Shown: in pieces, positions 28,159 to 57,761 of the stretch
How the letters are laid out: the number at the start of each line of letters is the position of its first letter
How positions within the stretch are numbered: the stretch's first letter is position 1
NCBI RefSeq assembly: GCF_000423365.1
Contig: NZ_AUHV01000005.1
Location: 62,001-126,000 of the forward strand
Origin: Maritalea myrionectae DSM 19524
GTDB taxonomy: Bacteria; Pseudomonadota; Alphaproteobacteria; Rhizobiales; Devosiaceae
Direction of reading: 5' to 3'
DNA: 64,000 nucleotides
Notes under the pieces: model-generated
Database searches by the model: none
What the model was told of the DNA's origin: nothing
What the model saw: the letters and a program-made list of their open reading frames with translations, nothing else
Program-made: the position numbers and the translations under genes

Positions 28159-28159
28159 T

Positions 28160-29899: not shown

Positions 29900-29932
29900 A
29901 TAGGTGTGTAATAACCTCATTGGATCTATGAA

Positions 29933-30944: not shown

Positions 30945-32477
30945 TTAAGCGACGTTTGAATCGGGGAAGCTGGTTTTTTTGGCGGTCATGAAGCTGATCA
31001 GGCGCTCGTCGATTTCCGGGTCAAGTTCCGGTGGCTGGTACGCCGCCAGCATCGATTTATAGAGCTTTTCAGCGCGCACCTCTGCTGTCAGCGCCCCATC
31101 TTCCAGCCATTGTTCATAGCTATTATTGTCGGCAATTTTCGAGCGATAAAAGGCGGATTTAAAGTTTGCCTGTGTGTGCGCACAGCCGAGGAAATGCTGT
31201 CCCGGCCCCACTTCACGCAACGCGTCGAGCGCTTGCCCGTTCTCCGACATGTCGACCCCATTGGCATAGACGGCCAACATATTGGCCTGATCGGCATCCA
31301 TCACGAATTTTTCGTAGCCCATGGCCAAACCACCTTCGAGCCAGCCTGCGGTGTGCAGCATGAAATTCACGCCCGCAATTAGCCCCTGCTGCAGCGTGTT
31401 GGCGGCTTCATAAGCGGCTTGTGCGTCAGGCACTTTTGAGGCTGTGAAGCCACCAGCGCTGCGGAATGGCACGCCCAAACGGCGCGCCAACGCGGCACCG
31501 ACATTGATCACCATGGAGGCTTCAGGCGAGCCAAAGGTTGGCGCCCCTGACTGCATCGACATGGAACTCACAAAGTTGCCGTAAATCACCGGCGCGCCTG
31601 GTCGGGTTAGTTGGGCCAGCGTCATGCCACAAAGGCCTTCTGCCAGGCTTTGCGCTGCAACTGCGGCTGAGGTTACAGGCGACATCGCACCAGCCACAAC
31701 AAATGGGCTGACCATGGCCGCCTGATTGTGCCGCGCATAAACCTTTAGTGCGCCAAGCATTGTGGAATCAAAAGTCATGGGCGAATTGGCGTTGATCAAA
31801 TTGACCAGTACGCAATTTTCTTCAACAAAGTCATGACCAAAGACGATTTTGGCCATATCGACGGAATCTTGCGCCCGCTCTGGCGCCGTGACGGACCCCA
31901 TGAACGGCTTGTCAGAATATTTGATGTGGCTATAGAGCATATCATAGTGGCGTTTGTTCACCGGCAAATCCATGGGCTCGCACAGGGTGCCGCCGGAATG
32001 GTGCAATCCCTCGCACATATAGGCGAGCTTTACGAAATTGCGGAAATCCTCAATTGAAGCATAACGTCGGCCGCCTTCGCGGCTATAGACGAACGGCGAG
32101 CCATAGGCGGGCACCAGCACCGTGTTGTTGCCACCAATGACAACATTCCGCGCTGGGTTGCGCGCATGCTGGGTGAACATGCTCGGCGCGCTTTTCTGGA
32201 TGATCTCCCGGCACATGCCGCGCGGGAACCGCACGCGTTCACCATCGGCGCTCGCCCCTGCCGCAACAAAGGTCGCAATAGCGTCCGGATCGTCCTTAAT
32301 GTCGATGCCGATCTCTTCAAGAATGGTATCCGCATTATATTCGATGATTTGCAGATCCGCATCGCTGAGGATTTCATAAGGGGGAATCTTGCGGGTGATA
32401 AAGGCCTGTGCCGGGGCTTCAGTTGTGCTCCCTGCCGTGCGTCCGCGGCGTCCGCCTTCGCGTCCTGGTCTGGGCAT
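30945..32477 (-). CDS. MttB-family (trimethylamine/glycine betaine) corrinoid methyltransferase without pyrrolysine
   Basis: The 510-residue protein belongs to the MttB superfamily: it moves a methyl group from a quaternary or tertiary amine to the cobalt of a corrinoid protein. The core starts at ILSDADLQIIEYNADTILEEIGI; a glycine/arginine-rich tail (PRPGREGGRRGRTAG) precedes it. The frame has no in-frame amber, so it is of the non-pyrrolysine type, like the glycine betaine enzyme MtgB; proline betaine or carnitine are other known substrates of this branch. The next genes encode a corrinoid protein, a methyl-THF methyltransferase, MetF and Fhs, and sarcosine oxidase is beside them, which makes glycine betaine the best guess. 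The ribosome site lies within the preceding gene's last codons (AAGGAGTAG). Confidence 0.88.
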   Translation of the reverse strand: MPRPGREGGRRGRTAGSTTEAPAQAFITRKIPPYEILSDADLQIIEYNADTILEEIGIDIKDDPDAIATFVAAGASADGERVRFPRGMCREIIQKSAPSMFTQHARNPARNVVIGGNNTVLVPAYGSPFVYSREGGRRYASIEDFRNFVKLAYMCEGLHHSGGTLCEPMDLPVNKRHYDMLYSHIKYSDKPFMGSVTAPERAQDSVDMAKIVFGHDFVEENCVLVNLINANSPMTFDSTMLGALKVYARHNQAAMVSPFVVAGAMSPVTSAAVAAQSLAEGLCGMTLAQLTRPGAPVIYGNFVSSMSMQSGAPTFGSPEASMVINVGAALARRLGVPFRSAGGFTASKVPDAQAAYEAANTLQQGLIAGVNFMLHTAGWLEGGLAMGYEKFVMDADQANMLAVYANGVDMSENGQALDALREVGPGQHFLGCAHTQANFKSAFYRSKIADNNSYEQWLEDGALTAEVRAEKLYKSMLAAYQPPELDPEIDERLISFMTAKKTSFPDSNVA

Positions 32478-32481
32478 GTGA

Positions 32482-32949
32482 CTACTCCTTATTCGCTCGC
32501 TTTAAATTGTGCGCCTCATGGGCGTTAAAATGATCTCTGACGCCATCGCCTGGCGGGTGGCGCTCAAATTGCGGCAAACCGTCAGTAATCTGGTAATAGT
32601 CGCCTTTTTCGCCAACAAACATGTGTCCCTTGACCGCCAGCCCATCTGTGTGCGTCAAGCTGCCCGCAAATATCGAGAGTGTGCGTCCATTTGTTTGCCG
32701 CCAGAAAAGTGGCGTGCCGCAAGCAAGACAAAACGCATATTCGGCGGTGGCGGTGAACGGCGTCCATTTTAGCGGGCCTTCCATTTTCACATTTTCGCGC
32801 ATCACCGCGGCAGCAGCCACAAAATGTCCGCTCAAATACCGACATTGGCGGCAATGGCAGAACCAAATGTCGGCGAGGCCCAGTGCTTCAAATTGCACAG
32901 CCCCGCAAAGGCACCCGCCCTTATGGCGTTCAGGCGCGCCGGCGGCCAC
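32482..32949 (-). CDS. GFA-family (glutathione/formaldehyde-activating enzyme-like) zinc protein
   Basis: The likely start is the GTG at 32949, with GAGGAGGA 7 nt upstream; this gives 155 residues and a 20-nt overlap with the upstream methyltransferase gene. The zinc sites of the GFA fold are intact: GGCLCGAV, CHCRQC and a later FCLACGTPLFW. Members of the family bind zinc and, in the founding case, bring glutathione and formaldehyde together; most members have no proven role. In an operon for demethylation beside formaldehyde-producing oxidases, dealing with formaldehyde or a one-carbon adduct is plausible. I have not seen a proven case for this operon type. Confidence 0.8.
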   Translation of the reverse strand: MAAGAPERHKGGCLCGAVQFEALGLADIWFCHCRQCRYLSGHFVAAAAVMRENVKMEGPLKWTPFTATAEYAFCLACGTPLFWRQTNGRTLSIFAGSLTHTDGLAVKGHMFVGEKGDYYQITDGLPQFERHPPGDGVRDHFNAHEAHNLKRANKE

Positions 32950-33832
32950 GACGACGTCCTCCTCGACCTTCACCATCATTTTCGGCCGGGGGTGCACGAA
33001 ATGTGTGAATCCAATTGGTGCAATGCGGGTCGACCCCGTTCAAGACATCCGCTGCTTTAATGGCTGGCACAAGCCCCTCATGTAGCGGGTTGAGGATGGC
33101 CGAAGTCATGCCTGCGGCGGCGATCATTGGTAGAAATGCGTTGTTGATCGCGTGTCGGTTGGGTAAGCCAAAACCGATATTGGAGGCGCCGCAGGTTGTG
33201 TTGACTTTGAGTTCCTCGCGAAGCCGTCGCACGAGGTGAAAAACATCTTTCCCGGCCCGATTGATCGCCCCAATGGGCATAACAAGCGGGTCCACGACAA
33301 CATCTTCGGCTTTGATCCCATAGTCCGCTGCGCGCTCAACAATGCGTTTGGCAATTTCAAAACGCACATCGGGGTCTTCGGAAATGCCAGTTTCGTCATT
33401 TGAGATGGCCACCACCGCTGCATCATATTTTTTCACCAGCGGCAAAACGCGCTCCATCACCTCTTCTTCAGCGGTGGTGGAGTTAACCAGCGCCCGCCCC
33501 TGGTAAACCGAAAGCCCGGCTTCAAGGGCTTCAATCACGGAGGAATCGATGGAAAGTGGCACGTCCGTTATTGATTGAACAAGCTGGATGGTCTCGGCGA
33601 GGATTTTGGGCTCGTCAGCCAAGGGAATGCCGGCATTAACGTCGAGCATTTGCGCCCCAGCGGCCACTTGGGCCAGCGTGTCCCGTTCAACGCGGGAATA
33701 GTCGCCTGCCTTCATTTCAGCAGCCAGAAGTTTGCGGCCTGTGGGGTTGATGCGCTCGCCAATCATAACGAAAGGCTGATCGAACCCGATACGCACTTCC
33801 TTGGTTGCTGAACTGACTATCGTTTGCGTCAT
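32930..33832 (-). CDS. Methyltetrahydrofolate:corrinoid methyltransferase (pterin-binding family)
   Basis: The 300-residue protein has the pterin-binding TIM-barrel fold shared with AcsE, MtgA and the MetH folate domain: VMIGERINPTGRKLL at the start, MLDVNAGIP, LSIDSS and TTCGASNIGFGLPNR. It should carry methyl groups between a corrinoid protein and tetrahydrofolate. With the corrinoid protein and MttB homologue in the same operon it would be the MtgA-like partner that makes 5-methyl-THF. The C-terminus is an odd GEGRGGRRRGRRRA tail, whose codons also hold the ribosome site of the GFA gene. Confidence 0.9.
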   Translation of the reverse strand: MTQTIVSSATKEVRIGFDQPFVMIGERINPTGRKLLAAEMKAGDYSRVERDTLAQVAAGAQMLDVNAGIPLADEPKILAETIQLVQSITDVPLSIDSSVIEALEAGLSVYQGRALVNSTTAEEEVMERVLPLVKKYDAAVVAISNDETGISEDPDVRFEIAKRIVERAADYGIKAEDVVVDPLVMPIGAINRAGKDVFHLVRRLREELKVNTTCGASNIGFGLPNRHAINNAFLPMIAAAGMTSAILNPLHEGLVPAIKAADVLNGVDPHCTNWIHTFRAPPAENDGEGRGGRRRGRRRA

Positions 33833-33843
33833 GGGCTGTTTCC

Positions 33844-34917
33844 TTAGCTTACTGTGCTTGTCAAATTATCCAGCATTTCATCGTTGGGCGTCACAACACC
33901 AATGGTGGAGTCCAGCGGTTCAGGTGCCCAGGGTTTTCGATCCCCCAGCACACCGGATGCTTTGACGATTTCGCCCACCCATTTTTCGTGGCGGTACGCC
34001 ATTAGGTGCACGCCAGAAACGCCGGGCGTCTCTTTGATTTGCTGCATCAAATCAACGGCAATGCGACGACCTTCTGCCTTCGGGTTGGGCGCATCTTCCA
34101 AGCGCTTGATGATGGCATCGGGGATATGAACCCCAGGCACATTGGCGCGGAGCCAGCGCGCGGTTTGTGCCGAGCCCAGAACACCCACACCGATGATAAT
34201 ATAGCTTTTCTCATGCAGCCCAAGGTCGCAGGCGCGGGCCATAAAGGTGCGTAAACGCTCTATGTCGAAACAATATTGAGACTGAATAAATTCAGCGCCG
34301 GCGCGAATTTTCTTTGCCAATTGATCAACGCGGTTTTCCAACGGCGGCACAAACGGATTGATGGACGCGCCCACGAACAAGCGCGGTGCCGTGTCGAGCT
34401 GGCGCCCGCTCAAAAACCGCGATTCATCGCGCAAAATCTTTGTGGTTTGCAGCAACGAAATACTGTCCAGATCAAACACGGGCTTGGCTTCAGGATGGTC
34501 CCCAGCGCCCACATCATCGCCCGTCAGGCACAGCACCGAACAAACACCAAGGGCGGCCGCGCTCAACAGATCGCCTTGCATGGCGATACGATTGCGGTCA
34601 CGACAGGAAAACTGGATGATCGGCGAATAGCCCGCGCGGGTAAGAATGGCGCAAACGCCAAGGCTCGACATATGACAATTTGCACCAGACCCGTCGGTGG
34701 CGTTGATGGCATCGACATAGCCATCAAACAAGTTGGCGCGGGCCAAAACTTCGTCAGGGTCAACTGAGTCAGGCGGGGCAATCTCTGTGGTCACCACAAA
34801 GTGGCCCGACCGCACGACGCGCTCAAACCGACCGTGCGATACGTGACCGGGCCGCTGGGTGAGCGGATCGCCCGGGTTAACACCGAATTCTTCAACAAAA
34901 TCGAGATCATCATTCAT
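33844..34917 (-). CDS. Methylenetetrahydrofolate reductase (MetF family)
   Basis: The 357-residue protein has the MTHFR TIM barrel: VVTTEIAPPDSVDPDEV, NATDGSGANCHMSSLGVC, IQFSCRDRNR, VLCLTGDDV and FIQSQYCFD. It interconverts 5,10-methylene-THF and 5-methyl-THF with FAD. In this operon the physiological direction is probably oxidation of 5-methyl-THF coming from demethylation. It overlaps the next upstream gene, an MTHFR C-terminal zinc/iron-sulfur-type protein, by 8 nt; such pairs occur in acetogens (MetF/MetV). This copy is therefore probably catabolic rather than the biosynthetic MetF of methionine synthesis. Confidence 0.88.
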   Translation of the reverse strand: MNDDLDFVEEFGVNPGDPLTQRPGHVSHGRFERVVRSGHFVVTTEIAPPDSVDPDEVLARANLFDGYVDAINATDGSGANCHMSSLGVCAILTRAGYSPIIQFSCRDRNRIAMQGDLLSAAALGVCSVLCLTGDDVGAGDHPEAKPVFDLDSISLLQTTKILRDESRFLSGRQLDTAPRLFVGASINPFVPPLENRVDQLAKKIRAGAEFIQSQYCFDIERLRTFMARACDLGLHEKSYIIIGVGVLGSAQTARWLRANVPGVHIPDAIIKRLEDAPNPKAEGRRIAVDLMQQIKETPGVSGVHLMAYRHEKWVGEIVKASGVLGDRKPWAPEPLDSTIGVVTPNDEMLDNLTSTVS

Positions 34918-35350
34918 CGCGCGCCAGCCTTAACCAAGAGGATTGTCCAATGCGGGAATGATCAACGGCAAATTCCAAATCTTTGATCGCGTCGCCGTCT
35001 TTCATCTTTGCCGCGCCATTCCAGGCATCCACCCAAACGCAGCGCATTTCGGGCTTCACCTCGCACATGCCATTTTCCCGAACGCCCCCGCACGGGCCGT
35101 TGCGAATGGACTTCGGGCAATTCATGGGACAGGTCATGCCAGTTTTGGAGAGAACGCAATCGCCACACATCTGACAATCAAAGACCACTCCCTTAACCAG
35201 CCGTTCAGCGGCTGTGATCGGCGTGTCGAGCCTGCGCCCAAAAAGCCGTGTCACCCCGCGCAATCCAGCAAGAATACCCGGCCGTGTCGCCGTGTAGATA
35301 CGTTCTAAAAACCGGGCATGGGCACTTGACCAGCGTCTAATCGCGTACAT
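34910..35350 (-). CDS. Cysteine-rich MTHFR C-terminal-domain protein (MetV-like)
   Basis: The start at 35350 is chosen because GGAGGG is 7 nt upstream; 146 residues result. Eight cysteines fall in residues 59-104 (FDCQMCGDC, TCPMNCPKSIRNGPCGG, GMCEV, MRCVW), the signature of the MTHFR_C family, which in acetogens is the MetV subunit linking MetF to other electron carriers. The N-terminal part is basic and helical. It lies between DUF1638 and metF with overlaps on both sides. Likely role: electron transfer or stability partner of the catabolic MetF; direct evidence in alphaproteobacteria is unknown to me. Confidence 0.82.
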   Translation of the reverse strand: MYAIRRWSSAHARFLERIYTATRPGILAGLRGVTRLFGRRLDTPITAAERLVKGVVFDCQMCGDCVLSKTGMTCPMNCPKSIRNGPCGGVRENGMCEVKPEMRCVWVDAWNGAAKMKDGDAIKDLEFAVDHSRIGQSSWLRLARDE

Positions 35351-35999
35351 GGTCATGCCCTCCATATTCAACAATTGCGTCGGTAGCGGCTTTTATTGCG
35401 GATTTGAGTTCGCCATAGCCGACATAACGATAGTCAAACTCCAGCCCAAGCTTGTCCGCCGCGTCAGCTGCCGCAGACTCCAAACTGATATCATGCGTCT
35501 GCGCCAGATAGACGACACGCCGATAATTGCCAAAATAGAGATCCCGCAAGTGAGGGTACCGATCGAGACCCAAGCCACGGATCACCAAACGGTCGAAATT
35601 TCGCACCAGATAATCGGTGAGGAAGAAGCTGCCAATCTCTTCATCAGTGATCTGAGCAAAGAGCGGGGAGCCGGCAAAAAACTCATAACAGTGTGCGAAC
35701 GGCAGCCGCTGAGCGTCATGCTTTTCCAGCACCTGATCCAAAGCCCCGCCGGTGCCGCACTCACCATAGCTAACCAACACCTGATCAAACTCGTCGCGGC
35801 GCTCGGTGAGGATCATATCAATGGCGGGTGCAATTTTTTGCGGGGCGTTGTGATATTCAGCTGGCAGGCATTGCAGCGTCATCGCGCTTGCGCCATCGCC
35901 CATTTGCGCGCGCAAGGCGACGATTTCTTTCGCCAGCGCACCGCAGGCGATCACCAAAAGACGCGGACTATCGGGCTTATGTCCACGCATCGCACCCAT
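35337..35999 (-). CDS. DUF1638 protein of the corrinoid operon
   Basis: The ATG at 35999 lies one nucleotide past the corrinoid-protein stop, with GGGAGG upstream, giving about 220 residues. The family is recognised from RLLVIACGALAKEIVAL at the start, the LPAEYHNAPQKI segment and YGECGTGGAL, which hold conserved cysteines (CGAL, YGECG) and the histidine of EYHN that could bind a metal. Function is not known. DUF1638 often accompanies MttB-type methyltransferases, so roles in corrinoid loading, activation or methyl transfer are possible. No reductive activator (RamA/ASKHA type) is present in the window, which leaves this protein as a candidate. Confidence 0.82.
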   Translation of the reverse strand: MGAMRGHKPDSPRLLVIACGALAKEIVALRAQMGDGASAMTLQCLPAEYHNAPQKIAPAIDMILTERRDEFDQVLVSYGECGTGGALDQVLEKHDAQRLPFAHCYEFFAGSPLFAQITDEEIGSFFLTDYLVRNFDRLVIRGLGLDRYPHLRDLYFGNYRRVVYLAQTHDISLESAAADAADKLGLEFDYRYVGYGELKSAIKAATDAIVEYGGHDHVRD

Positions 36000-36000
36000 A

Positions 36001-36684
36001 TTAGTGGTTCCTCCCGACAAGGGCTTTCGCCAATTCAGCGCTTCTTGCGGCATCCCGGCCATAGGCGGTTGCGTTTATGGCATCGGCAAATTCCTGGTTC
36101 AGCGGTGCGCCGCCCACCATGATGGGCAATTCTTTCAAAATGCCCCGCTTGTCGAATTCTTCAATCACCACGCCCATATAGGGCATGGTTGTGGTCAGCA
36201 GCGCTGACATGCCAAGTACGGTCGGCTCATGTTCGTCAATGGCCGCAAGATAATTCTCGACAGGGTTGTTGATGCCAATATCGATCACTTCGAAACCCGC
36301 ACCTTCGAGCATCATGCCCACGAGGTTTTTGCCAATGTCGTGGATATCGCCCTTCACCGTGCCGATGACATATTTCCCGATCTTTGCGGAATTCTCCGTT
36401 GCGGACAGGATGGGGCGCAATATCCCCATGCCGCCTTTCATGGCGTGGGCGCATTGCAACACTTCTGGCACAAACAGAATGCCGTCGCGAAAATCGACGC
36501 CGACAATCCGCATTCCTTCCACAAGCGCATCGCTGAGAACTTGATTGGCGTCCCACCCGCGTTCAAGCAGGATTTTTGTACCTTCAAGCACTTCGTCGGC
36601 CATGCCGTCATACAGATCGTCTTTCATCTGCTCGACAAGGTCATCGTCGCTCAATTCGCGGAGGACAATTTCGTCGTCACTCAT
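36001..36684 (-). CDS. Corrinoid (B12-binding) methyl-carrier protein
   Basis: The 227-residue protein is of the MttC/MtgC type: a helical cap (about 1-95) and a B12-binding Rossmann domain with KGDIHDIGKNLV, where H115 is the lower cobalt ligand (DxHxxG). The remaining base-off motifs MSALLTTTM and the C-terminal VGGAPLN are present. It shuttles methyl groups between the MttB homologue and the methyl-THF methyltransferase. The gene is second in the fhs-led operon, 17 nt after fhs. The organism must make or import cobalamin; no riboswitch for it was seen here. Confidence 0.92.
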   Translation of the reverse strand: MSDDEIVLRELSDDDLVEQMKDDLYDGMADEVLEGTKILLERGWDANQVLSDALVEGMRIVGVDFRDGILFVPEVLQCAHAMKGGMGILRPILSATENSAKIGKYVIGTVKGDIHDIGKNLVGMMLEGAGFEVIDIGINNPVENYLAAIDEHEPTVLGMSALLTTTMPYMGVVIEEFDKRGILKELPIMVGGAPLNQEFADAINATAYGRDAARSAELAKALVGRNH

Positions 36685-36701
36685 CTTTATTATCTCTCTT
36701 C

Positions 36702-38417
36702 CTATGCAAGTCCGACGATGTCGCCGTTTTCATCCAGGCCAATATCCAACGCCGCGGGACGCTTCGGCAGCCCGGGCATCGTCATGATGTCGCCGCATAC
36801 AATGACGACAAATCCAGCCCCCGCAGAGAGGCGCGCTTCGCGCACTTCCAGCGTGTGGCCTTCCGGCGCACCAGTAGATTTGGGGTTGGTGGAAAAGCTA
36901 TATTGGGTTTTCGCGATGCAAACCGGCAAATGGCCGTATCCAAGCTTTGAAAACTCATCGAGGCTACGGGATGCCGCGCTGCTAAAGTCAACGTGCGCCG
37001 CCCGGTATATTTCACGCGCCACCGTTTCAACCTTCGTTTTCAGCGGTGCATCATCAGGATAAAGCAAGTTGATTTCTGGCGTGCCTTGATCCAATTGATC
37101 CTTGACTGCTTGGGCAAGATCTTCCGCCCCAACGCCGCCTTCGGCCCAGTGCTTCGCCACGGTGCAACGCGCGCCCAGCTCATCACAAACCTTCTGAACA
37201 ACGGCGATTTCCTCATCGCTATCCAGAACAAAATGATTGAGCGCCACAATTGGTGTCACGCCAAATTTTTGCAGATTTTCGATGTGACGCCGCAAGTTCG
37301 CAACGCCACGTTCAACAGCTTCAGGGCTGGAGTCGCCGAGGTCTTTTTTCGCGACGCCGCCTTGCATTTTCAAGGCACGGACTGTCGCCACGAGCACAAC
37401 GGCATCCGGACGCAGTCCGGACTGTCTGCACTTAATGTCCAAGAATTTCTCTGCGCCAAGGTCTGCGCCAAACCCGGCTTCCGTCACCACCACATCGCAC
37501 AGCGAAAGCGCCGCCTTGGTGGCCATAACTGAATTGCACCCGTGGGCAATATTGGCGAACGGTCCGCCATGGATAAAGGCTGGGTTGTGCTCGATGCTTT
37601 GCACCAGATTGGGCTGAAGCGCATCTTTCAGCAACACGGCCATCGCGCCATCGGCCTCAATGTCTCGCGCGGTCACCGGTGATTTATCATGCCGCCGCGC
37701 AACGATAATATCGCCCAAGCGACGCTGCAGATCAGCAAGGTCCGTCGCAAGGCAAAGAATAGCCATGATTTCAGAAGCGACCGTGATGTCAAAGCCGGTT
37801 TCGCGCGGTATGCCATGGGCCACACCACCAAGACCGACATTGATGTTGCGAAGTGCACGGTCATTCATGTCGACAACACGGCGCCACACTATGCGGCGCG
37901 GGTCGATATCTTGTTCATTGCCCCACTGCAAATGGTTGTCGATGATTGCTGCCAGAAGGCTGTGCGCTGAAGTGATGGCGTGGAAGTCACCATTAAAATG
38001 GAGATTGATATCCTCCATCGGGATGACTTGCGCACGACCACCACCAGCTGCGCCGCCTTTCATGCCGAAGCATGGGCCCAGGGAGGGTTCACGCAGACAC
38101 ACCATTGAGTTCAGGCCAATGCGGTTCAGCCCGTCATTCAAGCCAACACTTGTGGTTGTTTTGCCTTCGCCTGCGGGCGTGGGGGTAACAGCGGTTACCA
38201 AAACTAGCTTGCCTTTTGGCGCCTCCGCTTTGGACGCAATATAATCCAGCGATAGCTTTGCCTTATAATGCCCGAAGGGGATGAGCGCTTCTGCGGGCAC
38301 GCCCAAGCGGTCTTCAGCCAACGCCACGATGGGGCGCATGCTGGCCGCGCGCGCAATATCAATGTCCGGGGATCCCGGGGGCGGCAACTCCTCTTCGATC
38401 ATGATGTCCAATGCCAT
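36702..38417 (-). CDS. fhs: Formate--tetrahydrofolate ligase
   Basis: Fhs interconverts formate + ATP + THF and 10-formyl-THF. I prefer the ATG at 38417 (571 residues) because GGGAGGA stands 7 nt upstream; the frame extends 8 codons more. The P-loop-like [16 protein letters not shown] lies near residues 75-95, followed by [19 protein letters not shown] and later [15 protein letters not shown]. In this operon it likely runs in the ATP-forming direction, releasing formate from C1 units stripped from methylamines; FolD, needed between methylene- and formyl-THF, is not in the window. It is the first gene of an eight-gene minus-strand operon ending with mttB. Confidence 0.95.
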
Positions 38418-38722
38418 GAGCGCGTCCTCCCTATTCGTCAATTTCGCCGTGGTCTACGGCGCCTCCGTCGCTGGATAAAAACCCCGCGCTGACTACAAAT
38501 CATGATCTCTTTTCAAATTGGCGGCTGTTCCAAATTCGACTTCAAATCTTCAAAAAACGACAAATAGAGGCACAAAAATGCTTGGCGTTGTCGAATTGGC
38601 GGTGAATAATGCGTTGGGAAATGCAGAACGATTGGTGCGTGTAGCCGACGCTAAGCGATTGTTTTTGCGATCGCTCCAGGGTTCGAAATTATCGCGCTCG
38701 ATTTGCGATTGGGGGAGGAAAG
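38418..38722. other. Divergent promoter region between fhs and the GlxA-type regulator
   Basis: These 305 nt separate two divergent transcripts and carry no credible gene. It is the natural place for binding of the neighbouring AraC-family regulator, but I could not pick out a convincing repeat. The regulator's ribosome site GGGGGAGG lies at about 38711-38718. Confidence 0.5.
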
Positions 38723-39724: not shown

Positions 39725-39733
39725 CGCCGTTCC

Positions 39734-40309
39734 CTATTGGGCTTGGCCACCATTGGAGAGCACAGAGAGAAAGTACGGCGCAAATGATCGCCATATCTCG
39801 ATGTGAAAAATCGTTTCTGTTTCGCGAAACAGCACAATCTCCGCGCGCTCAAAAATGGTGCGCGTACATTTGCCCACCGGAAATGTGGCCAAATCCAAAT
39901 CAAGCGGACAGCCCACATTGATCAGCTGCGCTGCTCCCTCGCCACCAATATGGAACGCGACGTTGCGATGCGACACGTCAACAAGGCTGAAGGGCGATGC
40001 CGTATGGCGTTTGCACTTCTCTTGAAGTGTCGCACCAACCTCGGGTGCTGCGATGATCAACCATTCGTCCGGCGCCAAGCACATGATAAGCGCATCATCG
40101 TCACGATAGACTGTGTTGATCTTGGTGGGCAGCGCCAGGCCAGTTGCCTTGGCAAAAGCCGCCACATTGCTTTCGCGCAAGCGGAGGCTGAAGCGAGACT
40201 TTTCACCCATAAGCTCGACGGTAAAAGATTGGCCAGGATGGTCTAGGCTCTGGCCCATCGTCACGCCCTGATCCATTTCCAAGGTGCTGTTGGTCGCATC
40301 AGATGACAT
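39734..40309 (-). CDS. soxG: Sarcosine oxidase gamma subunit
   Basis: SoxG is the small GcvT-like, non-catalytic subunit of heterotetrameric sarcosine oxidase. Starting at the ATG at 40309 (GGGGAG 7 nt upstream, 11-nt overlap with soxA) it has about 191 residues. Features seen are SRFSLRLRE, CLAPDEWLII, SLVDVSHRNVAF and GCPLDLDLATFPVGKCTRT, typical of the family. It is the last gene of the TetR-DMGDH-soxB-soxD-soxA-soxG series and converges with the GlxA-type gene with only 9 nt between the stops. Confidence 0.88.
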   Translation of the reverse strand: MSSDATNSTLEMDQGVTMGQSLDHPGQSFTVELMGEKSRFSLRLRESNVAAFAKATGLALPTKINTVYRDDDALIMCLAPDEWLIIAAPEVGATLQEKCKRHTASPFSLVDVSHRNVAFHIGGEGAAQLINVGCPLDLDLATFPVGKCTRTIFERAEIVLFRETETIFHIEIWRSFAPYFLSVLSNGGQAQ

Positions 40310-43274
40310 TGAGCCGCTCCCCTTGCTTATCGTAGAAAATCGTCTCGACAATTTCTGCTTTGATCATTTTATCGGGCATCGGCACATAAATGGTTTCGCC
40401 CTTCAGCGCATGGCCGTTAGCCACAAGCGCCAGGGCGACTGAGCAGCCCAATGTCTCGCTCCAATAGGATGAAGTGACATGCCCGACCATATCCATGGGG
40501 ATGGGCTGGTCCGGGGTCATGACAATTTGAGCCCCCTCTTCCAACACAGTCTTTGGATCACTGGTTTTGAGGCCCACCAATTGTTTGCGCCCTTCGGCGA
40601 CAATGTCAGGCCGCGCAAGCGATCGCATGCCCACAAAGTCGGTTTTCTTTTTGCCGATGGCCCAAGACATGCCCGCATCATAGGGCGTAACCGTGCCGTC
40701 CGTGTCCTGACCGACAATGATAAAGCCTTTCTCTGCCCGCAATACGTGCATGACTTCGGTGCCATAGGGCGTGATGTCATATTGCTTCCCGGCTTCATAA
40801 AGCATTTCCCACAGGGCGCGGCCATAATGGGCAGGCACGTTGATCTCAAAGCCCAACTCGCCACTAAAGCTCACGCGGAACAGGCGCGCATCGACGCCAC
40901 ACACTTTACATTCGCGCACCGCCATGTGTGGGAACGCGTCTGGCGACAGATCAACCCCTTCAACAAACGGCTCAATCAGCTTGCGGGCATTGGGACCGTT
41001 CAGGGCAATTACCGCCCATTGCTCGGTGATGGAGGTCAACCAGACATCAAGGTCCGGCCACTCTGTTTGTAAATAGTCTTCCATATGCGCCAAAACGCGC
41101 GGTGCCCCACCTGTCGTGGTGGTCACATGGAAACGATCTTCCGCCAGTCGCCCGATTACCCCATCATCCATGATGTAGCCATCTTCGCCCAGCATCAGCC
41201 CGTAGCGACAACGCCCGACACCTAATTTGGTCCATGGGTTGGTGTACATGCGGTTCATAAATTCGGCGGCATCTGGGCCAACCACTTCAATTTTGCCCAG
41301 CGTGGATGCATCAAATATGCCCAACGACTCGCGCGTCGCCTTGCATTCGCGGGCCACGGCTTTATGCATATCCTCGCCCTTTTGGGGGAAATATCGCGCG
41401 CGCCGCCACAAGGCGACCGGCTCGAAAACCGCGCCATTTTCCTCCGCCCAACCATCAATCGATGTTTTGCGCACCACATCAAAGGCTGCGCCGCCATTAT
41501 TGCCCGCCAGTGCACCGAACGTGGTTGGGGTGTAAGGCGGGCGAAATGTGGTCAGGCCCACTTGCGTGACGGGGCGATTGAGCGCGCGCGAGGCAATTTG
41601 CAACCCGTTCAGGTTTGATGTTTTGCCCTGATCGGTTGCCATGCCGGTTGTGGTGTAGCGTTTAATATGCTCAATCGATTTGAAGCCTTCGCGCACGGCC
41701 AAGCGGATGTCTTTCGCGGTCACATCATTTTGAAAATCCACAAAGGCTTTGACGCGTGACTCGTCGCGGTGGGTTGGCAAAATTTCCAAGGCCCCGTCGC
41801 CAGTCCATGGTGCAGGTTCAACCACTTCAAAACTGTCATTGCCACCGCCTGCGTTTGCGCCTGTTTCAAGTGCAACGCCAAGCCCGAAATCGCCGTTGCA
41901 AGCACCGACGCAAACAGCATTTTCATTTGCTTGGTCCGGCACATAGGCAGCGAGGTCTTCACGCCATTTCAACGAGCCCTTGGAATGGGACCAAAGATGT
42001 ACGCTGGGCGTCCAGCCGCCCGACATAATCACCGCATCGCACGAAAGGGTTTCACCCTTCGGATCAACTTGATCTCCGTTCACCTTATTTGTCGTGACAC
42101 TGCTCACACGATGACGACCGGCGGTCGCCGTCACTGTCCACCCGACGCGAACTTCAATGCCGCGTTTTTCCGCTTCTGCCTGCAAGTTTTCATCGACTTG
42201 AGGACGGCAATCAATGATCGACACAATTTGGCTATTGGCATCTGCCAAATCGAAAGCAGCCTGATAGCCGCTATCATGGCTGGTGACCAACGCGATGCGT
42301 TCGCCCACCGCCACGCCGTAGCGATTAAGAAAAGTTTGTGCGGCAGAAGCCAACATAACACCGGGACGGTCATTTCCGGCGAAAACCAACGGCCGTTCGA
42401 TGGCGCCTGTCGCAAGTATGATTTTTTTGGCCCACACGCGGTACAACCGTTCGCGCGGCCCGTCTGCTTCTCCATCTTTCAAATGGTCAGTTAGACGTTC
42501 GGCAAGACCGAGGAAATTGTCGTGATAATAGCCGATCGCTGTGGTGCGTGGCATCAAGGTGACATTTTCCGCCTTCTCCAGCTCATCCAAGCTACGGGCC
42601 AGCCAGTCTGCCGCGGGCAAGCCGTCGATCATTGCCTCCGGCGTGGACAAGAGTGACCCGCCGGGTTCGGCCTGCTCATCAACAAGGATCACACGGCCCG
42701 CCTGTTTGGCGGCCGCAAGCGCCGCTGCAACACCTGCTGGCCCTGCACCAACAATCAGCGTTTCACAATGGGCGTAACAGGCTTCATATTTATCGGGGTC
42801 TTCTGCCTTTGGCGCTGGCCCCAAACCTGCTGTGGCGCGGATGACCGGTTCATACACTTTGTCCCAGAAGGATTTCGGCCACATGAAGGTTTTGTTGTAA
42901 AACCCGGCCGGGAAAAAAGCGGAAAACACATCATTGAGCGATGTGACATCAAACTTGAGCGAGGGCCAATTGTTCTGACTTTGTGCCGTCAATCCGTCGA
43001 ACAGTTCCAGCGTTGTTGCCCGCACATTGGGCGTGACACGCCCCGGCCCCCGATCAAAGGCGACAAGGGCATTTGCCTCGTCTGATCCCGCCGCCAAGAT
43101 GCCGCGCGGGCGGTGATATTTGAACGAGCGCCCCACCAAATGCACGCCATTGGCCAGCAAGGCCGAGGCGAGCGTGTCCCCCTCATAGCCTTGATAAGTT
43201 GCCCCGTCGAAAGTGAATTCAACTGGTGCGTTTTGATTGACCCTGCCGCGTCCAACACGTCTAAAATTGTTCAT
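40299..43274 (-). CDS. soxA: Sarcosine oxidase alpha subunit
   Basis: The ATG at 43274 overlaps the soxD stop (ATGA) and gives 991 residues. Order of domains: a 2Fe-2S-ferredoxin-like N-terminus (VEFTFDGATYQGYEGDTLASALL), a NAD(P)-binding/FAD-type Rossmann region with LIVGAGPAGVAAALAAAK and ATGAIERPLVFAGND, and a C-terminal GcvT-like folate-binding half (about 600-991) with GELGFEINVP. The enzyme oxidises sarcosine to glycine, giving H2O2 and either formaldehyde or, with THF, 5,10-methylene-THF. Length and motifs match known heterotetrameric enzymes. Confidence 0.95.
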   Translation of the reverse strand: MNNFRRVGRGRVNQNAPVEFTFDGATYQGYEGDTLASALLANGVHLVGRSFKYHRPRGILAAGSDEANALVAFDRGPGRVTPNVRATTLELFDGLTAQSQNNWPSLKFDVTSLNDVFSAFFPAGFYNKTFMWPKSFWDKVYEPVIRATAGLGPAPKAEDPDKYEACYAHCETLIVGAGPAGVAAALAAAKQAGRVILVDEQAEPGGSLLSTPEAMIDGLPAADWLARSLDELEKAENVTLMPRTTAIGYYHDNFLGLAERLTDHLKDGEADGPRERLYRVWAKKIILATGAIERPLVFAGNDRPGVMLASAAQTFLNRYGVAVGERIALVTSHDSGYQAAFDLADANSQIVSIIDCRPQVDENLQAEAEKRGIEVRVGWTVTATAGRHRVSSVTTNKVNGDQVDPKGETLSCDAVIMSGGWTPSVHLWSHSKGSLKWREDLAAYVPDQANENAVCVGACNGDFGLGVALETGANAGGGNDSFEVVEPAPWTGDGALEILPTHRDESRVKAFVDFQNDVTAKDIRLAVREGFKSIEHIKRYTTTGMATDQGKTSNLNGLQIASRALNRPVTQVGLTTFRPPYTPTTFGALAGNNGGAAFDVVRKTSIDGWAEENGAVFEPVALWRRARYFPQKGEDMHKAVARECKATRESLGIFDASTLGKIEVVGPDAAEFMNRMYTNPWTKLGVGRCRYGLMLGEDGYIMDDGVIGRLAEDRFHVTTTTGGAPRVLAHMEDYLQTEWPDLDVWLTSITEQWAVIALNGPNARKLIEPFVEGVDLSPDAFPHMAVRECKVCGVDARLFRVSFSGELGFEINVPAHYGRALWEMLYEAGKQYDITPYGTEVMHVLRAEKGFIIVGQDTDGTVTPYDAGMSWAIGKKKTDFVGMRSLARPDIVAEGRKQLVGLKTSDPKTVLEEGAQIVMTPDQPIPMDMVGHVTSSYWSETLGCSVALALVANGHALKGETIYVPMPDKMIKAEIVETIFYDKQGERLNVI

Positions 43275-43573
43275 GATGACCGCTCCGCGATGGTTTCGGG
43301 TGAGGGTCGTTGTTCGCCGCATTTATAGGTCATGACAAACTTGTCGCTCACCGTGTCGCGTACCGCATTGAAAAATTTGGCGCACCCATGGGCATGTACC
43401 CAGCGTTCGAAATGGGTGCCGCGCGGATTGTTGCGTATGAATAGATATTTCGCCCATTCGTCATCGCTTAAAGCGGATGGGTTTTCCGGCCGCGCGATAT
43501 GCGCCTCGCCCGCATAGCGGAACTCCAATTCGGGCCGCTTTTCGTTGCAAATGGGACATTCAATCATCATCAT
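43271..43573 (-). CDS. soxD: Sarcosine oxidase delta subunit
   Basis: The 100-residue zinc-binding subunit has the expected ligands: C6 and C9 (ECPICNEKRP) and the histidine/cysteine cluster HAHGC (H60/H62, C64). DEWAKYLFIRNNPRGTHFERW is the strongly conserved middle. Three ATG codons in a row open the frame, with GGAG upstream. It lies between soxB (12 nt) and soxA (4-nt overlap). Confidence 0.93.
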   Translation of the reverse strand: MMMIECPICNEKRPELEFRYAGEAHIARPENPSALSDDEWAKYLFIRNNPRGTHFERWVHAHGCAKFFNAVRDTVSDKFVMTYKCGEQRPSPETIAERSS

Positions 43574-43585
43574 GGCGAAAACTCC

Positions 43586-44839
43586 CTAGTGCGCTACTGC
43601 GGCGGCTGCCGCTTCGTCGATCAGGCGGCCCGTTGTAAAACGTTCCAACGTAAATGGCGCATTGATCGGGTGTGGTTCATCTTTGGCGATGGTGTAGGCC
43701 AGCAAATCTGCTGCGCCGGGCGTGGCTTTAAAACCGCCTGTGCCCCATCCACAATTGACGTAAAGCCCGGGCACCGGGGTGCGGCCCAAAATACAAGAAC
43801 GATCTGGTGTCACATCGACCACGCCACCCCAGCTGCGTAGCATGCGCATGCGTTTAAAGATCGGGAAAATTTCGCATATTGCGGCCAGCGTGTGTTCGAC
43901 AATGTGCAGCGCCCCCCGCTGGCTATAAGACACATATTGGTCTGTCCCCGCCCCAATCACCAGCTCGCCTTTGTCCGATTGGCTGATATAGGCATGCACG
44001 GAATTGGACATGACCACACAAGGGAAAATCGGCTTCACAGGTTCCGATACGAGCGCTTGCAAGGGGTAGCTTTCCAGCGGAAAATCGAGCCCGGCCATAT
44101 TCATTATGATGGATGAGTTGCCAGCTGCAGACACGCCGATCTTCTTCGCGCCGATAAATCCTTTTTCCGTTTCAACGCCTTCCACTGCACCATCGGCCCC
44201 GCGCCGAACGCCGGTGACAGCGCAATTTTGAATGATGTCGACGCCCAGTTTCGCCGCCGCGCGGGCATAGCCCCACGCCACAGAATCGTGGCGGGCAACC
44301 CCGGCCCGCTGCTGTAAGGCACCGCCCATCACCGGATAGCGTTTGGCTGAGGAAATATCGAGCGGCGGACAGAAGGCTTTGCATTCTTCCGGCGTCATCC
44401 ATTTATTATCAACACCGTTCAATCGGTTGGCGTGGATATGACGCTGAAAGCTTTGAACGTCGTGCACATTGTGCGCCAACATCAAAACGCCGCGCTTGGA
44501 AAACATCACATTGTAGTTCAGCTCTTGCGACAACCCATCCCACAGATCAACCGCGTGATCATAGAGCCGCGCGCTTTCATCATAAAGATAGTTAGAGCGG
44601 ATGATGGTTGTGTTGCGCCCGGTATTGCCGCCGCCGAGCCAGCCTTTTTCAATGACGGCGACATTGGTGATGCCATATTTGCTGGCAAGATAATAGGCCG
44701 CGCCGAGGCCATGCCCACCTGCGCCAACGATGACCACATCATAGGCACTTTTGGGCTGGGCATCAGGCCATTGCTCTGGCCAGTTTTTATGGCCGGAGAG
44801 CGCATTGGCAAAAAGAGAGCGCGCAGAATAACGGATCAC
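43586..44839 (-). CDS. soxB: Sarcosine oxidase beta subunit, GTG start
   Basis: SoxB carries the FAD and covalent FMN and oxidises the amine. The 417-residue frame opens IRYSARSLFANALSGHKNWP, the usual SoxB start, from a GTG that overlaps the stop of the upstream flavoprotein gene (GTGA). The dinucleotide-binding VIVGAGGHGLG is at residues 37-46, and GGNTGRNTTIIRSNYL follows; the C-terminal NCGWGTGGFKATPG is the second flavin contact. Standard member of the soxBDAG set. Confidence 0.95.
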   Translation of the reverse strand: MIRYSARSLFANALSGHKNWPEQWPDAQPKSAYDVVIVGAGGHGLGAAYYLASKYGITNVAVIEKGWLGGGNTGRNTTIIRSNYLYDESARLYDHAVDLWDGLSQELNYNVMFSKRGVLMLAHNVHDVQSFQRHIHANRLNGVDNKWMTPEECKAFCPPLDISSAKRYPVMGGALQQRAGVARHDSVAWGYARAAAKLGVDIIQNCAVTGVRRGADGAVEGVETEKGFIGAKKIGVSAAGNSSIIMNMAGLDFPLESYPLQALVSEPVKPIFPCVVMSNSVHAYISQSDKGELVIGAGTDQYVSYSQRGALHIVEHTLAAICEIFPIFKRMRMLRSWGGVVDVTPDRSCILGRTPVPGLYVNCGWGTGGFKATPGAADLLAYTIAKDEPHPINAPFTLERFTTGRLIDEAAAAAVAH

Positions 44840-47298
44840 GAGCGCAACCTTTCATTTGTGGGATCATAGGGGCTTTCTTCCAGCACAGCGGCCTTATAGC
44901 GCTGACCCAGGATTTCAATCTCAAGCTCCTGACCTGTTTCAGCCAGATCTGGACGAACCATGGCGAGTGCGAGGGACTTATTGAGACGGAACCCAAATCC
45001 ACCCCCTGTCGCCCGGCCCACAACTTCGCCATCAAGGTAGATCGGGTTATTGCCGATGACATCGGCATCTTCACACCCTATCACCTCAAGCGTGGCGAAC
45101 GCGTTCTTCGCGCCACGTTCTTTCCATGCGATCAGATTGTCTTTGCCGACAAAGTCGCCCTTCTTCAACGCGATAAAGCGATCCAAGCCTGACTCATAGG
45201 CCGAATATTCAATCGACATTTCCGTGCCGACGAGGCGGTATGATTTCTCAAGCCGCAAATTATTCATGGCGCGGATGCCAAACGGTTTAAGGCCATGGGC
45301 ATCGCCATTTTTAAAGATCGCATCAAAAATATGATTTTGATATTCGATCGGATGGTGGATTTCCCATCCCAGCTCGCCAACAAAATTGACGCGCAGCAGT
45401 TTGACCGGCGCATGGCCAATTGAGGTCTCCTGCCCTGTGAGCCATGGGAAAGCTTCATTGGACAGATCCGCACCGCAAATGGGCTGCAGCAAATCGCGCG
45501 CCTTTGGCCCGGCGACCACAAGAACGCCCATAGCGCCGGTAAGGTTTTGGAATTGCACGGAGCCATCTGTCGGCATTTGTTTTTTCAGCCAATCATGGTC
45601 AAGCCGCTGCCAGGCACCTGCCGACACGACATAAAAGCTGTCCGGCCCTTCGCGTTGCACCGTAAATTCGGAATGCACGCCGCCGAGTGGCGTTAGCCCA
45701 TGCAGCAAGCCAACCCGCCCGATCTTTTTCGGCAAACGGTTCGCCAAAATTCGATCCAGAAACGCTTCGGCGCCCGGCCCGCTTATGCGCGCCTTGGCAA
45801 ATGCGGTCATGTCCAACAAGCCGACATTTTCTGCCACATTGCGACATTCATTGCCCACATGTTCAAACCATTTGGAGCGACGGAATGACCAATCATCTTC
45901 CTGCGGCACACCTTCAGGCGCGAACCAGTTTGGTCGTTCCCAGCCAAACAATTGACCAAAAACGGCGCCTTTCTCCTTCATCCGGTCATAGCAAGGTGAG
46001 GTCCGCAATGGCCGCGCCGCGCCGCGCTCTTCATCCGGATAATGCACTTTGAAAACGTGATCGTACGCTTCCTCGTTTTTCTTGATGAGGTATGATTTTG
46101 TGGCGTAATCCCCAAATCTGCGCGGATCAACACCGAGCATATCAACGCTTGGTGTGCCTTCAACAATCCATTCAGCAAGCTGCCAGCCCGCACCGCCCGC
46201 TGCGGTGATGCCGAAGCTGTGGCCTTCGCTCAGCCAGAAATTCTTTTTGTCCCATGCGGGTCCAACAATCGGGTTGCCATCCGGCGTATAGGCAATCGCG
46301 CCATTATAGACTTTCTTGATGCCGAGCTCTTCGAAAATGGGTACGCGGCGGAACGCCGACTCGATGTGCGGCATCAGGCGCTCGACATCTTCTTGAAACA
46401 GTTCATATTCGCTCTGGGCATCCGGCCCATCTACATAGCAAGCTGGCGCCCCGGCTTCGTAAGGCCCAAGCAAAAGCCCTCCCGCCTCTTCGCGCATATA
46501 CCATGACCCATCAGATTCACGCAGCACGCCCATTTCAGGCAATCCTTTTTCGCGCCGCTCGAGGATCGCTGGATGAGGCTCCGTCACGATAAATTGGTGC
46601 TCCACGGGAACAACAGGAATATCGAGACCAACCATAGCCCCGGTCTGGCGGGCAAAGTTCCCTGTGCAAGAGATGACATGTTCGCAGGTTACCGACCCCT
46701 TGTCGGTTTCGATTGTCCATTCGCCATTCGCTGCCTGACTAATGCCGTTCACGGTCGTGTAGCGGTGGATTTTAGCGCCCATGGACCGCGCGCCGCGGGC
46801 GAGCGCTTGGGTGAGATCAGCAGGTTGCACATAGCCATCATTTGGATGGCGAATGGCACCGACGAGATCATCCTTGACCGCCAAAGGCCATAGGTCAACG
46901 ACCTCGTCTGGCGTTAGAAATTCAACGTCCACGCCGATGGTTTGGGCGACGCCCGCATATTGATGATATTCATCCATCCGGTCCTGGTTGGTGGCGAGGC
47001 GAATGTTTGAAACCGTGCTCAGGCCCACATCCATGCCGACCTCGGCGCCAAGGCGTCCATATAGATCCACCGAATATTTATGCAACTGGCCCACGGAATA
47101 GCTCATATTGAACAGCGGCAGCAGCCCGGCAGCATGCCATGTGGAGCCAGATGTCAGCTCCTTCCGTTCGATCAGGATGACATCGGTCCATCCCTTTTTC
47201 GCCAAATGATAAAGTGTTGAAACACCGACGACCCCGCCGCCGATCACCACAGCCCGTGCCGATGACGGCAGGGCCTGCTCGCTATTTTGATTGGTCAT
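44836..47298 (-). CDS. Dimethylglycine/sarcosine dehydrogenase-like FAD-GcvT fusion protein
   Basis: Starting at the ATG at 47298 (AAGGCAG upstream) the product has 820 residues. The N-terminal DAO-type flavin domain has VVIGGGVVGVSTLYHL (18-25 core) and TSGSTWHAAG, whose H55 is the site of covalent FAD in dimethylglycine dehydrogenases. The C-terminal half (about 430-815) is a GcvT-like folate domain ending in LEIEILGQRYKAAV. Such enzymes oxidise dimethylglycine or sarcosine and pass the C1 unit to THF. In this setting dimethylglycine to sarcosine is the natural step, since soxBDAG follows. The start overlaps the TetR gene by 17 nt. Confidence 0.88.
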   Translation of the reverse strand: MTNQNSEQALPSSARAVVIGGGVVGVSTLYHLAKKGWTDVILIERKELTSGSTWHAAGLLPLFNMSYSVGQLHKYSVDLYGRLGAEVGMDVGLSTVSNIRLATNQDRMDEYHQYAGVAQTIGVDVEFLTPDEVVDLWPLAVKDDLVGAIRHPNDGYVQPADLTQALARGARSMGAKIHRYTTVNGISQAANGEWTIETDKGSVTCEHVISCTGNFARQTGAMVGLDIPVVPVEHQFIVTEPHPAILERREKGLPEMGVLRESDGSWYMREEAGGLLLGPYEAGAPACYVDGPDAQSEYELFQEDVERLMPHIESAFRRVPIFEELGIKKVYNGAIAYTPDGNPIVGPAWDKKNFWLSEGHSFGITAAGGAGWQLAEWIVEGTPSVDMLGVDPRRFGDYATKSYLIKKNEEAYDHVFKVHYPDEERGAARPLRTSPCYDRMKEKGAVFGQLFGWERPNWFAPEGVPQEDDWSFRRSKWFEHVGNECRNVAENVGLLDMTAFAKARISGPGAEAFLDRILANRLPKKIGRVGLLHGLTPLGGVHSEFTVQREGPDSFYVVSAGAWQRLDHDWLKKQMPTDGSVQFQNLTGAMGVLVVAGPKARDLLQPICGADLSNEAFPWLTGQETSIGHAPVKLLRVNFVGELGWEIHHPIEYQNHIFDAIFKNGDAHGLKPFGIRAMNNLRLEKSYRLVGTEMSIEYSAYESGLDRFIALKKGDFVGKDNLIAWKERGAKNAFATLEVIGCEDADVIGNNPIYLDGEVVGRATGGGFGFRLNKSLALAMVRPDLAETGQELEIEILGQRYKAAVLEESPYDPTNERLRS

Positions 47299-47977
47299 GG
47301 TCCGCTGCCTTTTGTTGAGAGCCAGTAGAAGAATCCGGGCGGTCCATTGCATTGGTCTTTGCATTGAACTTGGGGGCCGTCCGGCCGGTTTCCTTTGCGA
47401 TGGCGGCTAAGGCTGTTTCCAAAATCCGCCAACATTCCTCTTGTCGTACGCTCAGCGCCAAGCGGCGCTCGATCCACAATCCGCGCTGCAATGCACTCAG
47501 CTCAATGGCTTTCATGCGGGCGGCGGCGCGCGAAAAACCCAGTTCGCGCAAATCTGCTGTGCTGTTTGAAATCATTCTGCTGCTAAAAATGTGCATCAGC
47601 CGGGCAACGCTTTTGTCGGCGCCGGAATAGGCCCAGAATTGCGGCCATATGATCGAAATATCGGCCATAAAGTGAAATGGGCTGAAATGCACTTCGAGCG
47701 AGCGCGCAATCCGCTTGAGCGGATCAGGCTCGGTGCGCCGGATCGCAATTGTCTCTTCACGCAGGGTGCGCACCATATAGAGGAAGGCCTGATAAATCAG
47801 CGCATCCTTGGTATCGAAGAAATAGTGGATTGAGGCGGTCGACACGCCCGCGCGTTTGGAGACCAGTTTGGTGGTGAGGTTGGCGATGCCTTCCTTTGCC
47901 ATCACCGAGAGCACGCCATCGATAATCGCTTGCGGCGTATCCCTTGCGATGCTCGCGTTTTTACCTGGCTGATCCAT
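47282..47977 (-). CDS. TetR-family regulator of the dimethylglycine/sarcosine operon
   Basis: The N-terminal helix-turn-helix is clear (LTTKLVSKRAGVSTASIHYFFDTKDALI, residues about 37-64). The C-terminal ligand domain (about 70-205) resembles BetI-type proteins in outline (HFMADISIIWPQFWAYS). I prefer the ATG at 47977; an in-frame ATG lies 7 codons upstream. It heads the operon and probably represses it: a perfect 7+7 inverted repeat lies 46 nt upstream. The ligand could be choline, betaine or dimethylglycine; that is inference from context. Confidence 0.85.
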   Translation of the reverse strand: MDQPGKNASIARDTPQAIIDGVLSVMAKEGIANLTTKLVSKRAGVSTASIHYFFDTKDALIYQAFLYMVRTLREETIAIRRTEPDPLKRIARSLEVHFSPFHFMADISIIWPQFWAYSGADKSVARLMHIFSSRMISNSTADLRELGFSRAAARMKAIELSALQRGLWIERRLALSVRQEECWRILETALAAIAKETGRTAPKFNAKTNAMDRPDSSTGSQQKAADHDQSK

Positions 47978-48022
47978 ATTGCCCACCACCCTGCTCATGG
48001 CTGCTCAGCGCGGCCTTTGACC

Positions 48023-53979: not shown

Positions 53980-54042
53980 GCGCATCATCCACCTCACTTC
54001 AAGACTCATAAAAGTGGCTTTACGCCGCTAGACTCCTTAAAT

Positions 54043-55018: not shown

Positions 55019-55028
55019 GGTTTCTTCC

Positions 55029-55832: not shown

Positions 55833-55833
55833 T

Positions 55834-56706: not shown

Positions 56707-56719
56707 GATTTATCCGTCC

Positions 56720-57700: not shown

Positions 57701-57761
57701 CTTAAAAGTCTCCTCAACGCGGCATCCTACCGCAAAATCTTACAGGGCGGCGCGGCTTTGG

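Follow-up and report, generated by a model that had tools for sequence, protein, structure and literature searches.

Glycine betaine is one of the main osmolytes in the sea. In the aerobe Ruegeria pomeroyi, mutants in mtgC and in mtgD were reported to lose growth on glycine betaine and to become methionine-dependent, and by this work of 2025 the breakdown of glycine betaine was tied to methionine synthesis and B12 (PMC12478193). Two MttB-family proteins, MetF2, RamA and DUF1638 are described to increase on N-osmolytes in R. pomeroyi, and the mtg genes are described as often co-located, even as operons, in Alpha-, Gamma- and Deltaproteobacteria (PMC12478193). The split methionine synthase of Phaeobacter inhibens was reported to be dependent on RamA-like and DUF1638 proteins, and fitness data from this organism tie DUF1638 to corrinoid reactivation (PMC5764234). 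For MtgB of Desulfitobacterium hafniense (2qne, 9yce), residues Y94, N199, R309 and H345 were predicted to bind betaine (PMC6855144); by our reading, the published residue numbers match the 9yce chain with a shift of one.

The locus described here is located in Maritalea myrionectae DSM 19524, in a window (the whole stretch of DNA analysed) of 64 kb on contig C4; the genome has a size of 3.54 Mb and is 99.28% complete. A sequence-only reading had listed fifteen genes in three transcripts. All fifteen are open frames with family matches, are located where that reading had placed them and span 30945-47998 (Table 1). They form three blocks: a minus-strand block of eight genes (30945-38441), a single plus-strand gene (38723-39724) and a further minus-strand block of six (39734-47998). 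In the direction of transcription, the first block reads fhs, mtgC, DUF1638, metV-like, metF, mtgD, GFA and mttB, and the third (47998-39734) reads BetI-like TetR, dimethylglycine-dehydrogenase-like, soxB, soxD, soxA and soxG. The GbdR-like gene stands between the two minus-strand blocks, 281 bases from fhs. Neighbours within a block overlap or are separated by at most 17 bases; some of the overlaps may reflect the choice of the longest frame. On the basis of this layout, one transcript per block would be expected. The families named in the sequence-only reading are confirmed, but its list passed over the GFA-family and DUF1638 proteins. Its TetR-type regulator stands, with BetI as the best model, and its GlxA-type assignment is replaced by GbdR. 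The names MtgC, GbdR, BetI and SoxG were given at scores under the curated NCBIfam cut-offs.

Table 1. Genes of the proposed betaine locus, with positions in the window and the matches on which the names are based.
Gene or product	Position	Strand	Match
mttB/mtgB-type corrinoid methyltransferase	30945..32477	-	PF06253, 721 bits
GFA-family protein	32482..32997	-	PF04828, 59.6 bits
mtgD, methyl-THF:corrinoid methyltransferase	32930..33832	-	NF005719, 364 bits (above cut-off 259)
MetF, divergent type	33844..34917	-	PF02219, 100.7 bits
MetV-like protein, conserved cysteine-rich core	34910..35374	-	PF12225, 94 bits
DUF1638 protein	35337..36062	-	PF07796, 86.4 bits
mtgC, corrinoid protein	36001..36684	-	PF02607 and PF02310; best NCBIfam model MtgC NF047996, 194.6 bits (below cut-off 370)
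fhs, formate--THF ligase	36702..38441	-	NF010030, 889.7 bits (above cut-off 652)
GbdR-like AraC-type regulator	38723..39724	+	NF052371, 379.8 bits (below cut-off 480)
soxG, sarcosine oxidase gamma subunit	39734..40351	-	TIGR01375, 130.9 bits (below cut-off 143.95); PF04268, 47.2 (above cut-off 21)
soxA, sarcosine oxidase alpha subunit	40299..43322	-	TIGR01372, 1487.6 bits (above cut-off)
soxD, sarcosine oxidase delta subunit	43271..43573	-	TIGR01374, 121.6 bits (above cut-off); PF04267
soxB, sarcosine oxidase beta subunit	43586..44839	-	TIGR01373, 699.6 bits (above cut-off)
dimethylglycine-dehydrogenase-like FAD-GcvT protein	44836..47364	-	PDB: mitochondrial DMGDH 5l46, 625 bits (residues 33-841); dimethylglycine oxidase 1pj5, 366 bits
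BetI-like TetR repressor	47282..47998	-	TIGR03384, 104.2 bits (below cut-off 201.3)

Related loci were compared for the best 80 of 588 MttB relatives. Among these 80, Maritalea mediterranea has the nearest named MttB (90% identity), and the own or very near genomes may be absent. In the M. mediterranea genome, two MtgC frames and one homocysteine-domain frame were found, all of them stand-alone. Twenty-five loci (L008-L032), with MttB identities of at least 73% and from 23 genomes (two pairs being the same isolate), make up the operon set. The layout is not due to chance, because the order mtgC-DUF1638-metV-metF-mtgD-mttB is seen again at 17 of the 25 loci; fhs stands in front, as in the window, in 8 of these 17, and many of the loci without the full run end at contig edges. 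The carriers include Maritalea, Novosphingobium and a further sphingomonad, Hellea, Henriciella, Robiginitomaculum, Marinicaulis, Emcibacter and other Alphaproteobacteria, and also Gammaproteobacteria of the Arenicella type. A RamA-like frame cluster (one member scanned) is present in 16 of the 25 loci and is found directly before mttB in 14 mapped loci, a position at which it is absent in the window and in M. mediterranea (L008). By frame clustering, GFA is present in 19 of the 25, and it immediately follows mtgD in each of the 15 maps showing both; at L012, L013 and L018 it was looked for at the locus and not found. The GbdR-like gene is present at 12 of the 25 loci and a BCCT-family transporter cluster (one member scanned) at 3. 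The cysteine-rich core of the MetV-like protein is retained in the 16 related proteins compared, and a PDB search gave no solved relative of this protein. Downstream of mttB and in the same direction, L016, L019, L021 and L027 (4/25) carry an O-acetylhomoserine sulfhydrylase (a cluster named from one scanned member, L016), an alpha/beta hydrolase and a FadB-like gene; the first, an enzyme of the methionine pathway, is a possible tie to homocysteine supply. In the Arenicella-type loci L028, L030, L031 and L032, a gene resembling gamma-butyrobetaine dioxygenase (named from one scanned member, L028) is located near the operon, beside mtgC.

The genes, their order, their copy numbers and the tree are observations; the substrate, the direction of flux and private use of the core are inferred. 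Most likely, the window encodes an MtgBCD-type unit for glycine betaine catabolism, of the sort known from aerobes. The MttB-family (PF06253) enzyme is found together with a corrinoid protein and a pterin methyltransferase. The MttB/MtgB enzyme would transfer one methyl group of glycine betaine to Co(I) of MtgC, with dimethylglycine as product, and MtgD would pass the methyl group from MtgC to THF. Methyl-THF would then be oxidized to methylene-THF by MetF with MetV, and methylene-THF to formate, with a gain of ATP, by Fhs and by FolD, which is encoded elsewhere in the genome. In acetogens, too, MetF stands beside a cysteine-rich MetV-like protein; the pair of the window, as compared with theirs, would work oxidatively. 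The FAD-GcvT enzyme and SoxBDAG would convert dimethylglycine to sarcosine and glycine, the methyl groups yielding methylene-THF. The GbdR- and BetI-like regulators may respond to betaine or related compounds, and the corrinoid would be kept reduced by DUF1638 and the single RamA-like protein of the genome. The genes for dimethylglycine and sarcosine demethylation and the corrinoid reactivation gene DUF1638 co-occur at the locus, while the RamA-like gene lies elsewhere.

In the PDB, the window MttB matches best to 4yyc (693 bits) and to MtgB of D. hafniense (2qne/9yce, 437 bits), with 46.1% identity to the latter over 466 positions. The course first proposed from the sequence, from betaine through dimethylglycine and sarcosine to glycine with the methyl groups oxidized on THF, is well supported, and neither of the two results that the sequence-only reading had named as refuting it turned up. 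Assignment as a trimethylamine enzyme was rejected, with 115 bits to that enzyme vs 437 to MtgB, the two enzymes compared among the PDB matches. The window MttB has the four predicted betaine residues in common with MtgB: the alignment shows Y, N, R and H in 25/25 operon rows, the window included, and in 61-65 of 69 other MttB rows. The aromatic residue at MtgB position 353, however, is replaced by G in 25/25 operon rows (window included) and in 65/69 of the others. Since both F353 and the preceding Y of MtgB are G in the window protein, and an I is W, its pocket differs from that of the proven betaine enzyme; the same substitutions (two G, one W) are present in 64-65 of the 69 other rows. The altered pocket speaks for a first substrate other than glycine betaine, i.e., a different quaternary amine or a related compound (proline betaine, carnitine, gamma-butyrobetaine, DMSP or a choline derivative), with the sox and dimethylglycine-dehydrogenase-like genes serving betaine demethylated otherwise. 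The MttB family is in fact described to have members for several amines (PMC12478193), and at 4/25 operon loci each there are gamma-butyrobetaine-dioxygenase-like and, at another four, DddP-like neighbours, both scoring below their NCBIfam cut-offs and the latter also named from one scanned member. These neighbours and the O-acetylhomoserine sulfhydrylase (each at 4/25) leave room for other readings. A different first substrate is nevertheless unlikely, given that the sole MttB gene of the genome adjoins the dimethylglycine and sarcosine genes and the GbdR- and BetI-like regulators, and that PF00848, the family of GbcA, has no match in the whole genome. The latter result rules out a GbcA-type (Rieske GbcAB) route, as the sequence-only reading had expected. 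Glycine betaine as substrate is favoured by the context of GbdR-like, BetI-like, dimethylglycine-dehydrogenase-like and soxBDAG genes.

The genome contains one MttB (PF06253) gene, two corrinoid proteins with PF02607, three PF00809 proteins (two MtgD and one resembling folP), two MetF, one RamA-like protein, one FolD and at least two DUF1638 proteins. The second MetF, on contig C2, scores 318 bits to PF02219 vs 100.7 for that of the window. On contig C3 (G000, L111 6970-12583, plus strand), mtgE, mtgC, DUF1638, mtgD and ramA stand in a row and make up a complete split methionine synthase, with the same five parts as that of P. inhibens (PMC5764234). In comparison with the latter, the window set has mttB in place of mtgE and ramA. 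The window and C3 copies are 71.7% identical for MtgD and 64.6% for MtgC. A classical MetH or MetE was rejected for this genome, in which the sole PF02574 gene is stand-alone, PF02607 occurs only in the two corrinoid proteins and a search for PF01717 found nothing. Because MtgC, MtgD and DUF1638 stand again with mtgE and ramA on C3, two sets seem to exist in parallel in this genome, and a single RamA-like protein has to serve both.

The single PF02574 protein (332 aa, on C3) scores 463.7 bits, above the cut-off of 338, to the NCBIfam model PRK07534, named 'betaine--homocysteine S-methyltransferase'. Were this name correct, betaine could be demethylated on C3 and the window MttB would have another role. 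This is highly improbable: among solved structures, methionine synthases are the closest (157 bits to the homocysteine module 1q7m vs about 54 to the betaine-homocysteine methyltransferases 1umy/1lt7), the gene is part of an operon with mtgC, mtgD and ramA, and such proteins were argued to be without the betaine residues of betaine-homocysteine methyltransferase (PMC12478193). The protein is probably a methionine synthase subunit, and its database name is an example of how such names can mislead. The lack of a betaine-homocysteine methyltransferase, anticipated in the sequence-only reading, thus appears to be borne out for this genome; folD, which was among its proposed checks, is present.

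The betaine unit preferred here resembles the MtgBCD(E) system of R. pomeroyi DSS-3 in its MttB-type donor enzyme, corrinoid protein, pterin methyltransferase, MetF paralogue, DUF1638 and RamA, in belonging to an aerobic organism and in the dimethylglycine and sarcosine steps that come next (PMC12478193). Since the work on mtgC, mtgD and betaine in R. pomeroyi precedes ours, the pathway itself is not new and is a case of the published one; for the same reason, the earlier statement that knowledge of MttB chemistry comes largely from anaerobes no longer applies (PMC12478193). Two differences are seen: R. pomeroyi is reported to have one MtgC/MtgD pair for betaine and methionine, whereas the pair is duplicated in M. 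myrionectae DSM 19524, and the R. pomeroyi genes are not in one block, whereas those of the window stand all together with fhs (PMC12478193). The arrangement of a separate betaine core beside a full split methionine synthase may be new. In literature titles and the beginnings of abstracts, no description of the operon clade was found, although figures and datasets of PMC12478193 may include some such operons; likewise, titles and abstract beginnings on Maritalea and betaine, and on MetV and Alphaproteobacteria, gave nothing relevant. Because the two sets of this genome are apparently full and separate, they make the tie between betaine and methionine directly testable.

In the MtgC tree (77 rows), the window protein clusters with those of 17 operon loci in a fully supported clade (100/100) on a stem of 0.75, the members belonging to similar operons of several alphaproteobacterial families and of Arenicella. 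The second MtgC of the genome groups with the mtgE-linked rows, though not strongly (84/83). Because the tree is midpoint-rooted and the branches of two outlying rows are very long, its rooting is unsure. The 18 operon rows of the MtgD tree fall on one side of a branch (SH-aLRT 99), as do the 25 operon rows of the MttB tree (SH-aLRT 100), namely the window and 24 of the 25 loci, L021 having been dropped by a length filter; support for both branches is SH-aLRT without bootstrap. In a class sample of 144 Alphaproteobacteria genomes, the genome of the window among them, 30 MtgC matches (at least 62% identity) were obtained in 29 other genomes, and none of the 30, when placed in the tree, fell inside the window clade. 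Since the carriers are scattered over several alphaproteobacterial families and Gammaproteobacteria, horizontal transfer of the operon is suggested.

With its private-looking MtgC, MtgD, DUF1638 and MetF, the window unit looks like a betaine-dedicated version of the system, which has probably spread horizontally, methionine being made via the second, split synthase on C3. In its widest form the proposal is of a mobile, self-contained betaine operon of a distinct MtgC/MtgD/MttB lineage, which brought along an oxidative MetF-MetV pair and a GFA protein, whose core no longer serves methionine synthesis and by which the link between betaine and methionine reported for marine bacteria would be broken in carriers like M. 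myrionectae DSM 19524. This proposal is tentative and may well be wrong, and private use of the core is held with lower confidence than the betaine pathway itself. A somewhat more doubtful reading opposes private use only and leaves the pathway as it is: the MtgC and MtgD of the window would also feed MtgE, or the C3 core would take betaine methyl groups, as one dual system. The similarity of the two MtgD and MtgC copies and the single RamA-like protein, which has to serve both sets, are in line with a shared core, and dual use was demonstrated in R. pomeroyi (PMC12478193); against it, the genome has complete separate operons and the window-type MtgC is on a long separate stem.

Forty genomes, nearly all of them MAGs or draft assemblies, were chosen from the 80 loci, 21 with the operon and 19 with an ordinary MtgC beside mttB. 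A second PF02607 match is present in 16 of the 21 operon genomes, as 15 MetH-like frames (473-1021 aa, domain scores 87-94.5 bits) and 1 stand-alone MtgC. The other five have one PF02607 match only. One of these, G148, carries a homocysteine domain like that of MetH where a contig ends; the other four (G154, G157, G159 and G161; MAGs that may be incomplete) have stand-alone homocysteine-domain frames without a MetH-like one, which is consistent with a shared core. At least two PF02607 matches were found in 14 of the 19 comparison genomes, 10 of them with a MetH frame longer than 1000 aa. Operon and comparison genomes differ neither in MetH-like frames (15/21 vs 10/19, Fisher p = 0.33) nor in any second PF02607 match (16/21 vs 14/19, p = 1.0), and the idea that carriers always keep a second methionine synthase was not upheld. 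Private use of the core is thus a reasonable reading for the M. myrionectae DSM 19524 genome, because this has its own two operons, but the comparison did not support it as a rule across genomes.

Other genes were observed on both sides of the locus. At 26734-30664 (plus strand), genes for a circularly permuted ATP-grasp protein, an Alpha-E protein, a transglutaminase-like protein and a proteasome-type protein are consecutive, a row which we take to be an Anbu-type operon. At 48229-54009 (minus strand), the gene of the error-prone DNA polymerase DnaE2 is followed by two further genes, which were without an NCBIfam match at 1e-30 and, from their sequence, presumably encode ImuB and ImuA. Genes of homoprotocatechuate meta-cleavage (HpaI, HpaH, HpaG-like, HpaD and HpaE) are located at 54245-59276 on the minus strand.
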